In this document: piece after piece, positions 1,424-7,734 of the stretch
How positions within the stretch are numbered: position 1 is the first letter of the stretch
Layout: each line of letters opens with the position of its first letter
Source of the DNA: Metallosphaera yellowstonensis MK1
GTDB taxonomy: Archaea > Thermoproteota > Thermoprotei_A > Sulfolobales > Sulfolobaceae
Direction: 5' to 3'
Length of the DNA: 64,000 nucleotides
Assembly (NCBI RefSeq): GCF_000243315.1
Contig: NZ_JH597768.1
Span: 203,467 to 267,466, forward strand
The notes under the pieces: generated by a model
What the model saw: the letters and a program-made list of their open reading frames with translations, nothing else
The model's database searches: none
Told to the model about the DNA's origin: nothing
Made by a program: the position numbers and the translations under genes

Positions 1424-2085
1424 TGGCTTTTTCATCTCTAGTTTTCTGGCTTGCTCAGCCATCTTTAATCACATCTTTTTTAACTAGTTTATTATTTTGG
1501 GAAGGGCTTTTCATTTTAACTTATACCTTGATTGGTAATATATTTGTTAAAAATAAGATATTCTATATAACTTTAGGAGTTTATTTAATTTTTCATTTAT
1601 TCATCTTCGGAATTTATTTTGTGGCACTCTCAGGATTTGTCAATGGATTTTACGCAGGTATAGGTTATAGTGTGTATACGAGCAGGGACTTATGGAGTTT
1701 TGTAAATTATATTTCCTTTAGTCCAGCTATATTCTTTTTCATAGGCGATATTGAAGTAGATATTATACCTATAATACTATATTACGGCATAATCATTGGA
1801 AGTCTTCTAGGATATGGTTTTTCAACTGTTAGGGGACAGAAAAAAGTTTTAGGTGTTGTGGGTGGAATTAGCCTAGCTTCGGCATCAACTTGTTGTGCAT
1901 CAGTTCCAACAATAATTACATTAGCAATATTTTCATCTGATACATCATTACTTTTAACAATTCTTAGATTTTTCGGAAATCCGATAGGCTATGCACTAAT
2001 TTTTTACATTTTACCCACTATTTCTGTTTTTGCAATTTATCATATTACAAATGCTTTAAGGAAAGCTAGGGTCCTAAGGAGTTAA
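1423..2085 (+). pseudogene. MerT-like membrane protein, 5' end disrupted by IS256
   Basis: The frame stays open from the IS right end (about 1423) to the TAA at 2083-2085. A TTG at 1528 gives a 185-aa product, but the upstream residues (AFSSLVFWLAQPSL onward) are also membrane-like, so the natural start was probably lost upstream of the IS. The protein has four to five hydrophobic segments. The motif SASTCCASVP at Cys122-Cys123 (numbered from TTG) resembles the vicinal cysteines in the first membrane helix of MerT-type mercuric ion importers. With merA and a merB-like gene nearby, Hg(II) uptake is a reasonable inference, not proven. Translation from TTG 1528 might still give a shortened protein. 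Confidence 0.5.
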
Positions 2086-2702: not shown

Positions 2703-2906
2703 TTATCGTTTTATAAATTTATCAACTACATCTTTATAATCATTACATGAAACACTATGTTTAGATACTAAAGGCCATTTTCCATGATATATATAACACT
2801 CTATGCCAATATTTTGTCTTAATCTAATTGCAAGCCTGCCTGGCATTTTACATTTATTGCAAATAACCTCTATCTTAGTATTAATGAATTTACTTTTCCT
2901 TTCCAC
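2703..2906 (-). CDS. Small Cys/His protein, unknown function
   Basis: The 67-aa product starts with GTG at 2906, preceded by GGGAG at a suitable ribosome-binding distance. Cysteines at 16 and 19 (ICNKC), 37 and 53, with His41 and His49, could make a small metal-binding fold. It is AT rich like the rest of the island and lies between the structured RNA and the mercury genes. I recognise no family. A metal-responsive or metal-binding role is only suggested by context. Confidence 0.5.
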   Translation of the reverse strand: MERKSKFINTKIEVICNKCKMPGRLAIRLRQNIGIECYIYHGKWPLVSKHSVSCNDYKDVVDKFIKR

Positions 2907-3146: not shown

Positions 3147-3263
3147 TTAGTGAGAATGGCCATGATGTTCATGGGAATGATGTTCTCTCATGTGTTTCTC
3201 TGCTTCTTCTTTTGATTTGAATGTCATTCCACATGCCTCACATTTGTATTCCTCTTTTGCCAT
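3147..3263 (-). CDS. 38-aa C2H2 zinc-finger protein with His-rich tail
   Basis: The small frame runs from ATG 3263 to TAA 3147-3149. Residues 8-29 form a classic finger, C-x2-C-x12-H-x3-H (YKCEACGMTF then EKHMREHH), and the tail HSHEHHGHSH is extremely histidine rich. It is divergent from merA and shares the intergenic region holding the palindrome at 3306-3325; its own TATA-like TTTATATT lies at 3297-3304 and AGGTGA precedes the start. A role in metal sensing or buffering next to mercury genes is plausible. Short C2H2 proteins are common in Sulfolobales, so the finger itself is not unusual. Confidence 0.7.
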   Translation of the reverse strand: MAKEEYKCEACGMTFKSKEEAEKHMREHHSHEHHGHSH

Positions 3264-3305: not shown

Positions 3306-3325
3306 TTTACCACCATGGTGGTAAA
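3306..3325. promoter_or_regulatory. Perfect 20-bp palindrome, candidate shared operator of merA and the zinc-finger gene
   Basis: TTTACCACCATGGTGGTAAA is a perfect inverted repeat located just upstream of the TATA boxes of two divergent genes (CTTAAATA at 3333-3340 for merA; TTTATATT, 3297-3304, for the minus-strand gene). A dimeric repressor or activator bound here would control both. No regulator of the MerR or ArsR type is visible in the window. Confidence 0.6.
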
Positions 3326-3332
3326 TGAAAAA

Positions 3333-3368
3333 GCTTAAATAACTGTATATATGAATATATGTTCATAG
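3333..3368 (+). promoter_or_regulatory. merA core promoter with second inverted repeat at the start site
   Basis: CTTAAATA (3333-3340) lies about 30 bp before the GTG start of merA at 3369, so the mRNA would be leaderless or nearly so. Between them is an inverted repeat TATGAA (3350-3355) and TTCATA (3362-3367) separated by six bases, which would overlap the transcription start and could be a repressor site. Confidence 0.5.
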
Positions 3369-4802
3369 GTGAAAATATTGAAGAAATATGATCTTTTAAT
3401 TATAGGTTGTGGGGCAAGCGGATTTGCTACTGCAATAAAAGCTTCAGAACTTACGGAGGGTAAGATTAAAATAGGGATAGTCTGCAAGGGATTATTGGGT
3501 GGAACATGCGTTAATGTAGGTTGTGTCCCAAGTAAATATTTAATAGAAATTACAAATAAATATTACTTATCCAGAAAAAAATTTATTGGATTAGAATTAT
3601 CTGCAAAAATAAATTTCACTGATATTATGGGTGGATTAAAAAAGGTTGTTAAGGAATTAAGAGAAGAGAAGTATGAGAAAGTTCTTAATTATTATTCCAA
3701 TGTGGATTTAATAAAAGGAGATGTAACTTTCATTGAACCTAATAAAATAAGAGTTAATACAGAAAAAGGAGAACAAGAATTAAGTGGTTCTAAAATTATA
3801 ATAGGGGTAGGTTCTAGACCAGCGATACCCCCTATACAAGGACTTCAAAATGTAGGTTATATAACAAGTGATACGGTTTGGGATTTAAAAGAACTTCCAC
3901 ATTCTCTATTAGTGATAGGAGGTGGAGCTATAGGACTTGAAATAGGGCAAGCTTTAGCTAGATTAGGATCTGAGGTTACAGTAGTAGAGGTTATGGATAG
4001 AATACTGCCTAGTCCTTATTTTGAACCAGAAATTAGCTATGCATTAACTGATTATTTAGAAGATGAAGGACTAAATATTTACACTAAATCTACAGTGACT
4101 ATGGTTAGTAAAGAAGGAGACACGAAAGTAGTAGAGATTAGTACTAAGCGTGGAAAACAAAGACTAGAAGTGGATGAGATATTAGTAGCTACAGGGCGTA
4201 GACCTAATACAGAGAATTTAGAGCTTGAAAAAGCTGGAATAACAACAGATCAAAAAGGCTATATTTTAGTAGATAAATTCTTACAAACATCTAACCCTAT
4301 AGTATATGCTGCTGGCGATTGCATAGCTAAAAGTTTAATGCTTGAAACTCTTGCAGCCAAGGAAGGTGTATTAGCAGCTACTAACGCTATAAAAGGGAAT
4401 ATAGAAACCATAGATTATTCTACCACGCCAATAGTAGTATTTACAGATCCTCAAGTTGCTTCTGTTGGTTTAACGGAAGATGAACTTATGAAGAGGGAAA
4501 AAGTATGCTCTTGTAGAATCTTAAAATTAGATTATGTTGCTAAAGCTAGGTTAATCGGAGATACTAGGGGTTTCGTTAAACTAGTTGTTAATCCTAAAGA
4601 TGGTACAGTAGTTGGTGTTCATATCCTTTCTCCCCTAGCCTCTGAAATAATAATGGAAGGCGTAATGCTTGTAAAAAATAAAGTTAAATTAGAAGAATTA
4701 GTAGAAACTACTCATGTATTTCCTACAATATCAGAAAGCATAAAGTTAGCTGCACAATCCTTTATCAGAGATCCATCTAAGATGAGCTGCTGCGTGGAGT
4801 GA
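3369..4802 (+). CDS. merA: Mercuric reductase
   Basis: The 477-aa flavoprotein would reduce Hg(II) to volatile Hg(0) with NADPH in the cytoplasm. It has the pyridine nucleotide-disulfide oxidoreductase layout: FAD site IIGCGASGFA near residue 11, redox pair GGTCVNVGCVPSK (Cys47, Cys52), NAD(P) site VIGGGAIGLEIG, FAD site VYAAGDC, and a C-terminal dimerisation domain. The decisive feature is the vicinal C-terminal pair Cys474-Cys475 in KMSCCVE, diagnostic of MerA rather than dihydrolipoamide dehydrogenase. The N-terminal NmerA domain is absent, as in other archaeal MerA. Start is GTG with a TATA box about 30 bp upstream. The 45-aa gene follows after 5 bp. Confidence 0.93.
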   Translation: MKILKKYDLLIIGCGASGFATAIKASELTEGKIKIGIVCKGLLGGTCVNVGCVPSKYLIEITNKYYLSRKKFIGLELSAKINFTDIMGGLKKVVKELREEKYEKVLNYYSNVDLIKGDVTFIEPNKIRVNTEKGEQELSGSKIIIGVGSRPAIPPIQGLQNVGYITSDTVWDLKELPHSLLVIGGGAIGLEIGQALARLGSEVTVVEVMDRILPSPYFEPEISYALTDYLEDEGLNIYTKSTVTMVSKEGDTKVVEISTKRGKQRLEVDEILVATGRRPNTENLELEKAGITTDQKGYILVDKFLQTSNPIVYAAGDCIAKSLMLETLAAKEGVLAATNAIKGNIETIDYSTTPIVVFTDPQVASVGLTEDELMKREKVCSCRILKLDYVAKARLIGDTRGFVKLVVNPKDGTVVGVHILSPLASEIIMEGVMLVKNKVKLEELVETTHVFPTISESIKLAAQSFIRDPSKMSCCVE

Positions 4803-4807
4803 GTCTT

Positions 4808-4945
4808 ATGACAATAAAAAGAAGTAAATATTATACGATAAGAAGAACGTTTATTTGCAATTCTGGTTACGGAATTTTTGAATGTGAAGATGAAACTAAA
4901 TGCGCCCTAATAGCCTGTACTTACATAAGAGATGAGACTACATGA
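4808..4945 (+). CDS. 45-aa four-cysteine protein in the mer operon
   Basis: ATG 4808 follows the merA stop by 5 bp, and the TGA overlaps the ATG of the MerB-like gene (ATGA at 4942-4945), so it is clearly an operon member. The peptide has cysteines at 17, 26, 32 and 37 (FICNS, FECED, KCALIAC), which could bind Hg(II) or zinc. It might be comparable to the small MerI/MerH-type proteins of Sulfolobus mer operons, but I cannot match it to either. No signal peptide or membrane helix is seen. Confidence 0.7.
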   Translation: MTIKRSKYYTIRRTFICNSGYGIFECEDETKCALIACTYIRDETT

Positions 4946-5367
4946 GCGAAGAGATTCTCAATAAGATAACTTCACATAGACCAACTAACTTTAAGATAAT
5001 TGAGCAAGATAGTAAGGAAATATATGTCTATTGCGCATTGGATGTACTTCTATATGCTGCACTTACTTGTAATGATATTATAGTAGAAACTACATTATCG
5101 GGTGAAAATACCAGGTTTAAATTAGATGCTAACAGTGAACTTATATTATCATTTATAAATCCACATGATGCAGAAAAACTTCCACCTTCATATAATACAC
5201 CATCAACTATTTGCCCTTATTCAAGATTTTTCACTAATTTAGAGGAATTCGAAAGCTGGAGAAACACTCTCCCAGAAGAGATTAGACATTTAGTTATTCC
5301 CATAAGTGTAAAGGAGGCCCTCTTCATAATCAAAAGATACGTTATCTCTTCATTAGATAATGGATGA
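4942..5367 (+). CDS. Compact MerB-like organomercurial lyase
   Basis: The 141-aa product matches the catalytic core of alkylmercury lyase: CALD at 31-34 places Cys31 and Asp34 where MerB has Cys96 and Asp99, and TICPYSRFF supplies Cys91 at the position of Cys159 in the MerB SFCCHVHFF motif. The downstream pattern of a charged linker, then VIPISVKEAL, parallels the MerB end LAIVSVHEAF. Classical MerB is about 212 aa with an N-terminal winged-helix-like domain; that domain is missing here, as are the equivalents of Cys117 and Cys160. It would cleave C-Hg bonds and hand Hg(II) to MerA. The ATGA overlap upstream and the overlap with the next gene support one transcript. Confidence 0.7.
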   Translation: MSEEILNKITSHRPTNFKIIEQDSKEIYVYCALDVLLYAALTCNDIIVETTLSGENTRFKLDANSELILSFINPHDAEKLPPSYNTPSTICPYSRFFTNLEEFESWRNTLPEEIRHLVIPISVKEALFIIKRYVISSLDNG

Positions 5368-5542
5368 GATTATGAATTCCTCACTTTTCATAAGTAATAC
5401 TATAGTATTAATTGTAGGATTAATACTGATAAGTTTAGGACATAGTAATGGATTAAGGGCAGTAGCAGGAGCATTAGTTATCTTAATATTTAGTATAATA
5501 TTTAGTAAGATATTTAAGAATTTTTCTGTGAATTTCATTTAA
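5360..5542 (+). CDS. Small two-helix membrane protein in the mer region
   Basis: The 60-aa product starts with ATG 5360, overlapping the last codons of the MerB-like gene by 8 bp. Two hydrophobic stretches (TIVLIVGLILISLG and AVAGALVILIFSIIF) separated by HSNGLR suggest a hairpin membrane protein. It has no cysteines, so it is not a typical mercuric transporter. Operon position suggests an accessory role; function unknown. Confidence 0.55.
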   Translation: MDEIMNSSLFISNTIVLIVGLILISLGHSNGLRAVAGALVILIFSIIFSKIFKNFSVNFI

Positions 5543-5562: not shown

Positions 5563-6324
5563 TTGAATTTTTTGTTAGATTACTGGTATGTATTCCCTAT
5601 TTCAGCGCTTACATCTTTATTTAGAAATAAAACAAGATATAAATATGCACCACTATTATGTATACTCCTTATTTTAACTGTGCCTCCTTTATTTCCACCA
5701 AGTCCTTTAGGACTATTGGCAATTACTAACGTTCAAATTAACGATTGCATTGCATTAAGGAAATTCATCAAACAAAAAATTAATCGTTTATCTTCTCTTA
5801 ACTTTACAGAATTAGTTGAGATTCTTTTACCTGTAAGTATCGGATCCTTATTGTTATTATTTTATGGATGTAAGGAAGGGTTTGTATTATACTCTTTTGC
5901 TTCGACATCATTTACATTGTTATATATGCTAAGATTACGCATTAAAAATCTAGGTAATACAGGGCCAAAAGAATATAATCCCTTAGGAATTATGATAGCT
6001 AAATATTTCTCTTTAATAGTACTTTCAACTTCTTCATATGGATTTCCCTATTGTCATTTAGAAAGATACAAACTTGAAAAATTAGCCTTAGCAACGCTAA
6101 GTGCAGCGTTAATTAACGTAATAATAACATTAATAAAAATAGGTCCATCATTTCTCCAAATTAACTTGCTAATATTAATAATTGGAGGAACCATGACTGG
6201 TAATTACATTTCTAATGTATGGGGAAAAGAAGAGTTACAAGCACTATCTACTTTATACCATTATATATCGCTTATAATAGGTTTTATTACAATATTCTTG
6301 GAAATATTTTTAAAAATTATTTAA
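5563..6324 (+). CDS. Multi-pass membrane protein, unknown function
   Basis: The 253-aa product begins at TTG 5563, preceded by GAGGT at 5550-5554. It shows about six hydrophobic segments, a basic loop RLRIKNLGNTGPKEYNP and single cysteines in several helices (residues near 33, 62, 115, 168) but no CC pair. It ends the AT-rich plus-strand gene series beginning at merA and is followed by the IS4-like element. I do not recognise the family; a transport role associated with mercury or another metal is only inferred from position. Confidence 0.6.
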   Translation: MNFLLDYWYVFPISALTSLFRNKTRYKYAPLLCILLILTVPPLFPPSPLGLLAITNVQINDCIALRKFIKQKINRLSSLNFTELVEILLPVSIGSLLLLFYGCKEGFVLYSFASTSFTLLYMLRLRIKNLGNTGPKEYNPLGIMIAKYFSLIVLSTSSYGFPYCHLERYKLEKLALATLSAALINVIITLIKIGPSFLQINLLILIIGGTMTGNYISNVWGKEELQALSTLYHYISLIIGFITIFLEIFLKII

Positions 6325-6421: not shown

Positions 6422-7630
6422 CAGCAGTTATGGGAATCTTAGGGAGGTAATACGGGAAAGTCGGTATTAGCGAGAAGTTTTTATTTTTCGACGTCGTCCC
6501 GCTGAAAAGATGCTGAACGGAAAGGGACCGATCGAGTTGGCTAGGGAGAGGCTGGTCAAGGCGGTCAACCAGGTTCTGGGCGTGGTCAGGAGGAACGGGA
6601 GGAGCAGGAAGGTCGGGTTGGCGCTAGTCCTCATGGTCCTGGTAGGTGGGAGGGCCAGCGTGAGGAACGCGGCCGAGACGTTCGGGTTGGACTACGCAAA
6701 CCTGCTGGAGGCGTTGGGAGAACTCGACGACGCGTGGAGGGACTACCTGGAGGTCCTGTCGGGGCCGGTGAAGGGTCAGGTGGCCGTCATCATAGACGAC
6801 ACCGTGGACCACAAGGAGTACTCCAGGGGGAGGGACGTGAGCCCCCACGGGAACTACTGAATCTACTGCCACACCCACGGGAGGTTCGAGAGGGGCGTGC
6901 AGCTCCTCACTGTCGCCGTAGTGGACCTCTCCACGGGCAGGACGTTCATGGTGGGAGCTTTCCCCTACGCCGTGAGGAAGATGTTGGACTTGGGGATGGT
7001 CACCGAGTTCAAGACCAAGATCGAGATGGCCAGGGAGATGTTGGACGTGCTCAAGGGGTACTTCCGCGTGTCCAGGGTCGTCTTCGACTCGTGGTACTAG
7101 TCAGAGAAGCTCGTGACGGACAACGTGGTGTCTGAGCTCAAGTCCAACCGGAGGCTCCTCAGGGTCGAGTCGGTCCAGGGGACCCTCGAGGAGGTGGAGG
7201 GACACCTCCCAGTGGGAGACTTACCCCCGGACTCTACTACGCCGACCTGACCCTGGGAGACCGAGCTATTACGGTAAAGTTGCTAGTCCGGGAATATAAA
7301 CGTGACTCCGGGACACAGGCCAGGTACCTCTACACGACCGACCTCTCGCTCAGCGAGGAGGAGATCGAGGAGGCCTGGAGGATGAGGTGGGAGATCGAGG
7401 AGCTCCACAGGGACGTCAAGGCCTTGGGACTGGAGGACTCCTCGTTCTGGAGGAGGGAGAGGCTTCAGGGCTACCTCACGATCTTCACCATCAACAACGT
7501 CGTCAGGGAGCTGGTAGTGGAGCTTAACCTGAGGAGCGTGGAGGCGTTCCTCAGATCCTCGAGCGCCGTTTAGCCTGACCGCCGGGGCTGATGAAAATCT
7601 TTAAGTTACGTTAAAGTCCCATAACTGCTG
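6422..7630 (+). mobile_element. Decayed IS4-like insertion sequence
   Basis: Terminal inverted repeats CAGCAGTTATGGGA are visible at 6422-6435 and, inverted, ending at 7630. They enclose a transposase with two nonsense codons and a frameshift. The ends match those of the roughly 64-bp MITEs elsewhere in the window, so this is probably the parental family. No target duplication is visible (GTCTTAAA left, CCTATGAA right). It marks the right edge of the AT-rich mer island. Confidence 0.8.
6510..7573 (+). pseudogene. IS4-family transposase, inactivated
   Basis: Reading from ATG 6510, the frame is interrupted by TGA at 6858 and TAG at 7098, then shifts near 7215-7235 into the frame that ends at 7573. 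The conceptual protein keeps DDE features: IIDDTVDHK, VVFDSWY and the C-terminal RWEIEELHRDVK, which is the Y/R-E-K type signature of IS4 enzymes. G+C content is much higher than in the mer genes on its left. The element cannot move by itself in this state. Confidence 0.8.
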
Positions 7631-7734
7631 CCTATGAAAGTCCGACCCCTCGTGAGACTGAAATGTAATAATAGTTTTCCAATTCCGCTCAAACTAGACA
7701 ACGTCTCGCGGACTCTGAGGTTTCTACTAGATAT

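Follow-up and report, generated by a model that had tools for sequence, protein, structure and literature searches.

The chemistry of the organomercurial lyase MerB is understood as one in which two cysteines hold the mercury and an aspartate delivers the proton (Parks 2009, as discussed in PMC4525700). The N-terminal cysteines of the mercuric reductase MerA, known as NmerA, take Hg off MerB (PMC4525700), and preliminary evidence cited in the same paper indicates that the N-terminal portion of MerB traps Hg-DTT (PMC4525700). A 2021 survey that covered 84,032 genomes detected no MerB in Crenarchaeota, states that it is nearly absent from thermophiles, and argues that methylmercury cleavage arose at lower temperature (PMC8261052). 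Its authors (Christakis et al. 2021) also name a '117alt' class of untypical MerB-like proteins and discuss 117alt and 99Ser variants with other or broader metal range, the 99Ser variants having an altered metal affinity (PMC8261052). In the order Sulfolobales, the mer system of Saccharolobus solfataricus was described without a merB (PMC3466566). A 2020 study lists merB, by BacMet annotation, for Metallosphaera yellowstonensis alone among Metallosphaera (PMC7325606). This entry is very probably the gene at 4942-5367 of the DNA analysed here, its genome having one match. The gene itself has been known since that listing, where neither its architecture and surroundings nor the disagreement with the 2021 survey is treated (PMC7325606).

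Here, we focused on this gene within a 64,000-nucleotide stretch of the M. yellowstonensis MK1 genome, referred to as the window. Our preferred explanation, to which we assign a probability of about 0.77, is that it encodes a functional organomercurial lyase reduced to the catalytic core, in the operon merA-orf45-merB-orf60-orf253, and that the mer island carrying this operon came to thermoacidophilic Sulfolobales by lateral transfer. The first gene, merA (3369-4802, forward strand), encodes a mercuric reductase of 477 aa that has a C-terminal CC pair (SCCVE) and no NmerA domain, and scores 539.7 bits against NCBIfam TIGR02053 (cut-off 454). The sequence-only reading had placed merB directly behind merA with a stop-start overlap. 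This needs correction, as merA ends at 4802 and is followed by orf45 (4808-4945, forward strand), which encodes a 45-aa protein with four cysteines; the ATGA overlap at 4942-4945 joins the stop of orf45, rather than that of merA, to the merB start. The three genes lie on one strand and overlap or nearly abut. The end of merB (4942-5367, forward strand) is overlapped by 8 bases by orf60 (5360-5542, forward strand), a predicted small membrane protein whose status as a gene is weakly supported (dN/dS of about 1.8 from 11 changes). Next lies orf253 (5563-6324, forward strand), a predicted membrane protein of no family that, among 31 relatives searched, was found in its own genome only, plus the island copy in a second genome (G030).

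Of 31 related genomes, 16 contain relatives of orf45; all 16 are Sulfolobaceae, and the genes stand alone, distant from mer. This Cys4 family (roughly C-x8-C, then KC-x4-C) occurs in most Sulfolobaceae genomes searched, with an extra copy on the mer island and a further member in the same genome (G000:C10:1177469-1177582), and no Pfam or NCBIfam entry was found for it. We also considered orf45 as a detached MerB N-terminal domain, which is ruled out by its membership in this stand-alone family. Upstream of merA lies a perfect 20-bp palindrome, TTTACCACCATGGTGGTAAA (3306-3325), which is kept in three island copies with one mismatch in G030 and for which no chance match is expected within the window. 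The same palindrome was not found upstream of the native merA, other archaeal merA genes or the island ATPase gene, and it is likely the dedicated operator of the merA operon. Just 3' of it and before merA, a TATA-like element, CTTAAATA (3334-3341, forward strand), can be read from the sequence.

The operon is part of a low-GC island (roughly 0.30 against 0.48): between 1.5 and 6.5 kb of the window the GC fraction is about 0.28-0.34, and outside this interval about 0.46-0.51, with transposase-like ORFs flanking the island on both sides. The island is present in three of the 214 Sulfolobales genomes searched, namely the M. yellowstonensis genome itself (G000) and two genomes (G029 and G030) of one other genus in the same family. 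The island MerB is 100% identical in G029 and 91% identical, with the same length, in G030. The same search gave two marginal merB matches, in G023 and G476 (E 0.004-0.006); the former locus was rejected as it contains no MerB-like ORF, and the latter region has internal stops. IS copies disrupt the island in G000. A 1,476-bp insertion (L010:7300-8775) with a 383-aa transposase-like ORF splits merA in G029, and the downstream merB is intact.

In G000 and G030, the island extends upstream beyond the window with genes for a vicinal-CC membrane protein, a P-type ATPase, an HMA protein and an HxlR-type regulator. Within the window, a truncated form of the vicinal-CC membrane protein (1528-2085, forward strand; CC in a hydrophobic segment) is a possible Hg transporter, by analogy; in G030 it is 241 aa long and lies beside the P-type ATPase gene. 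Vicinal-CC membrane proteins are found near merA both on the island (1528-2085; L011 reverse strand 6929-7654) and at other Thermoproteota merA loci (L127-L129), and, judged by eye, could be archaeal equivalents of the MerT-type transporters. HxlR-like regulators with a C-terminal Cys are encoded on the island (L012:3108-3479, reverse strand; Pfam HxlR) and, by eye, beside Thermoproteota merA (L125:2965-3357 and L131:3002-3388), which suggests an HxlR-type mercury regulator in place of MerR or ArsR. Divergent from merA is a gene for a 38-aa C2H2 zinc-finger protein with a His-rich tail (HSHEHHGHSH; 3147-3263, reverse strand), possibly a small metal-binding protein. A small Cys protein of 67 aa (2703-2906, reverse strand) is conserved in the island, and a match to Rfam Sso133 (Sulfolobus sRNA133; 62.6 bits) lies at 2443-2505 (L012:9410-9472).

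To place the 141-aa merB product, we compared it with profiles and with proteins of known structure. It matches Pfam PF03243 (MerB) with E=1e-10 and 42.1 bits, above the curated gathering threshold of 27, and the G030 copy scores 42.4 bits. When all PDB chains were searched with phmmer, MerB entries were the sole matches up to E=10, although weak ones (E 0.02-0.24). The phmmer alignment sets C31, D34 and C91 opposite C96, D99 and C159 of MerB, in agreement with the catalytic assignment of the sequence-only reading; C31 and D34 lie within C31-A-L-D34 and C91 within TICPYSRFF. Judged by the alignments, the three residues would come close to one another in the active site. As judged from these comparisons, the similarity to MerB exceeds chance. 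Identity to full-length MerB is about 20-29%, the Trp95 equivalent is Tyr30, and an extra cysteine is present (C43). The NCBIfam models of full-length MerB score far below their cut-offs (NF009710, 33.5 against 193 bits; NF033555, 26.8 against 200 bits). By these scores the protein falls outside the NCBIfam full-length subfamilies, which is unsurprising for a remote homologue limited to the core. A comparison of the G000 and G030 copies gave a dN/dS of 0.23 (14 synonymous and 13 nonsynonymous changes), indicating that merB is under constraint, and C31, D34, C43 and C91 are unchanged between the island copies.

The fold was predicted in two ways. An AF2 model built with the window protein aligned to 26 MerB cores (pLDDT 87.5, pTM 0.83) gave 11 significant Foldseek matches in the PDB, all MerB (E 2.2e-7 to 3e-4, TMq 0.62-0.70), and its best non-MerB match had E=0.93. 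As a control, a model of the single sequence without any alignment (pLDDT 62.6, pTM 0.60) gave 10 significant chains, again all MerB (E 5.9e-6 to 1e-3, TMq 0.63-0.64), with the best non-MerB match at E=0.46. As the alignment-free model also matches MerB alone, the fold assignment is not circular. The structural match to R831b MerB (PDB 3f0o/3f2f) has about 19% identity. According to both models, the 141-aa protein has the core fold of solved MerB structures. The sequence-only reading had proposed structure prediction as a check and would have abandoned the assignment had a different fold, for instance that of NosL-like proteins, matched best; MerB entries were the only significant PDB matches of the two models (best E 2e-7 and 6e-6). 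A NosL or TRASH origin was rejected, with no NosL or TRASH match in Pfam up to E=10 and none among the significant PDB matches of either model.

The N-terminal domain is absent, as had been claimed: 30 residues precede the catalytic Cys31, whereas R831b MerB has 95 residues there. Immediately 5' of the merB start, an in-frame TGA (4933-4935) excludes an upstream start and also rules out a missed upstream exon or a frameshifted N-terminal domain. A reduced MerB N-terminus is rare rather than unique by sequence comparison, as it is also found on Deinococcus plasmids and in another Thermoproteota genome (G412). The positions equivalent to Cys117 and Cys160 are L52 and P92, so the earlier statement that neither is a cysteine holds. 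In a set of 31 distinct MerB relatives, most of them full-length, the 117 position is Ser in 25 and Cys160 is absent in 30; as most full-length relatives also lack them, the missing cysteines are not diagnostic. With L52 at the 117 position, the protein counts as a 117alt variant in the published sense, and our best reading of it is a 117alt, 'CPY'-type MerB core.

The proposal that this is a stripped-down organomercurial lyase is thus supported by the catalytic residues and by fold matches to MerB alone; the lyase activity itself is what we infer. A protein of MerB fold that has lost lyase activity would share much of this evidence, its Cys pair passing Hg(II) or R-Hg+ uncleaved to MerA or to an efflux pump. 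The lost N-terminal domain, Tyr in place of Trp95, the low identity and the NCBIfam scores far under cut-off are all compatible with such Hg binding and trafficking, as are the genes for an HMA protein and a P-type ATPase that the island carries upstream in G000 and G030. However, both catalytic cysteines are still accompanied by Asp34, which protonolysis requires and simple binding by two thiols does not, and merB is under purifying selection, so that we regard this explanation as unlikely.

Still less probable is a MerB-like lyase for another organometal (e.g., organotin or organolead) or with a broadened metal range. This would fit the description of 117alt variants as untypical MerB-like proteins in the survey's account of them (PMC8261052) and the existence in NCBIfam of SaoL, a MerB-like organometallic lyase family. 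The match to SaoL (NF040728) is, however, negligible (13.7 bits against a cut-off of 140), Asp99 is kept as D34, unlike in 99Ser variants, and the mercuric reductase as operon partner points to mercury. That merB is a decaying remnant of a full-length gene on an IS-damaged island, as the IS copies in G000 and the interrupted merA in G029 might suggest, is highly improbable given an intact and identical merB in G029, an equally long one in G030 that is 91% identical, the dN/dS of 0.23, a compact single-sequence fold and, 5' of the start, an in-frame stop and orf45 instead of any MerB-like sequence. Counting against our preferred explanation are the low identity to full-length MerB, the NCBIfam scores under cut-off, the missing N-terminal domain and Trp95 equivalent, and the interrupted G029 merA beside an intact merB, which means that merA and merB do not work as a pair in every copy of the island.

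How the island was assembled can be read in part from MerA. The M. yellowstonensis genome encodes a second, native MerA (C10:444996) that is 45% identical to the MerA of the window. A tree of 57 MerAs places the window MerA in one group with 11 Thermoproteota sequences from outside the Sulfolobales (support 100/100), and the native Sulfolobales MerAs form a separate group (support 100/100). MerB was not found beside the related non-Sulfolobales merA genes, and the nearest merB relatives are only about 29% identical. The island thus combines an archaeal merA from outside the order with a distant merB. A broad scan of contigs found 65 bacterial loci, mostly in Actinobacteria, and no Sulfolobales among them. 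Viral or plasmid carriage of merB was also considered and rejected: no match was found in phages or viral contigs, and plasmid matches were to distant MerBs only, with 29% identity or less. From its low GC, the presence of the same block in another genus and the MerA placement, we conclude that the mer island is laterally acquired. We regard the protein as a genuine and probably functional MerB, reduced to its core and encoded on a mobile mer island of archaea.

For such a lyase, the protonolysis, the substrate and the route of Hg hand-over are what we infer from known MerB chemistry and the gene content. R-Hg+ would enter the cytoplasm and be ligated by Cys31 and Cys91, after which Asp34 would relay a proton to the carbon and the hydrocarbon would be released. 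Hg(II) would remain on Cys31 and Cys91 until taken by thiols, and MerA, with its C-terminal CC pair, would reduce it to Hg(0). As the window MerA is without NmerA, hand-over would probably be straight to its C-terminal CC pair or via a small thiol carrier, for which orf45 is a hypothetical candidate. The joint absence of NmerA and of the MerB N-terminal domain is a suggestive combination. The bolder proposal, of a thermoacidophilic crenarchaeon whose core-only MerB cleaves methylmercury when hot, together with an NmerA-less MerA and by way of a 45-aa Cys4 carrier, is tentative, and we consider it somewhat doubtful.

If it were true, it would contradict the view of MerB as absent from Crenarchaeota and nearly all thermophiles, and the N-terminal domain would be dispensable for catalysis. 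A lyase of 141 residues would define the minimal MerB catalytic unit and could serve as a heat-stable means of breaking down methylmercury. The merA-linked MerB core in Sulfolobales makes the 2021 claim of no MerB in Crenarchaeota directly testable. Mats and insects of the acidic Dragon-Beowulf springs have been reported to contain methylmercury (PMC10893860), and Beowulf Spring is a habitat of M. yellowstonensis (PMC4753309); a selective pressure is therefore plausible. The host probably comes from acidic Yellowstone springs, in which methylmercury enters the food web.

Compared with described systems, the protein resembles the 117alt variants in keeping the C96, D99 and C159 equivalents with C117 replaced; among the variants as presented in the 2021 survey (Christakis et al. 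2021, PMC8261052), none is from Crenarchaeota and none is described as consisting of the core alone. With R831b MerB (PDB 3f0o/3f2f, PF03243) it shares the catalytic core fold, the Cys-Asp-Cys residues and the linkage to merA, whereas it has 141 instead of 212 aa, no N-terminal domain, no C117 or C160, Tyr for Trp95 and a thermoacidophilic archaeal host. The Deinococcus plasmid MerB (L013/L014; 173 aa) also has a reduced N-terminus, with the catalytic Cys at residue 52, and shares Cys-Pro-Tyr, while the G412 MerB (L009) is likewise 141 aa long, with Cys at residue 33, and is without the CPY motif. Halorussus MerB (212 aa) and G162 MerB (L004; 209 aa) share Cys-Pro-Tyr at the second catalytic Cys but keep a long N-terminus. 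All of these short or 'CPY' MerBs are only 22-28% identical to the 141-aa protein and have different gene neighbours. On the Deinococcus plasmids, the order is merR-(2Fe-2S/CopZ-like)-merB (L013:2024-3459 and L014:2024-3453); the short MerB ends in CC and merA is not directly adjacent. The merRHAI operon of Saccharolobus solfataricus is likewise an archaeal mer operon in Sulfolobales, to our knowledge with no merB. It combines a MerA of the native lineage with an ArsR-type regulator and the TRASH-domain protein MerH, whereas the island described here carries an HxlR-type gene and small Cys proteins.
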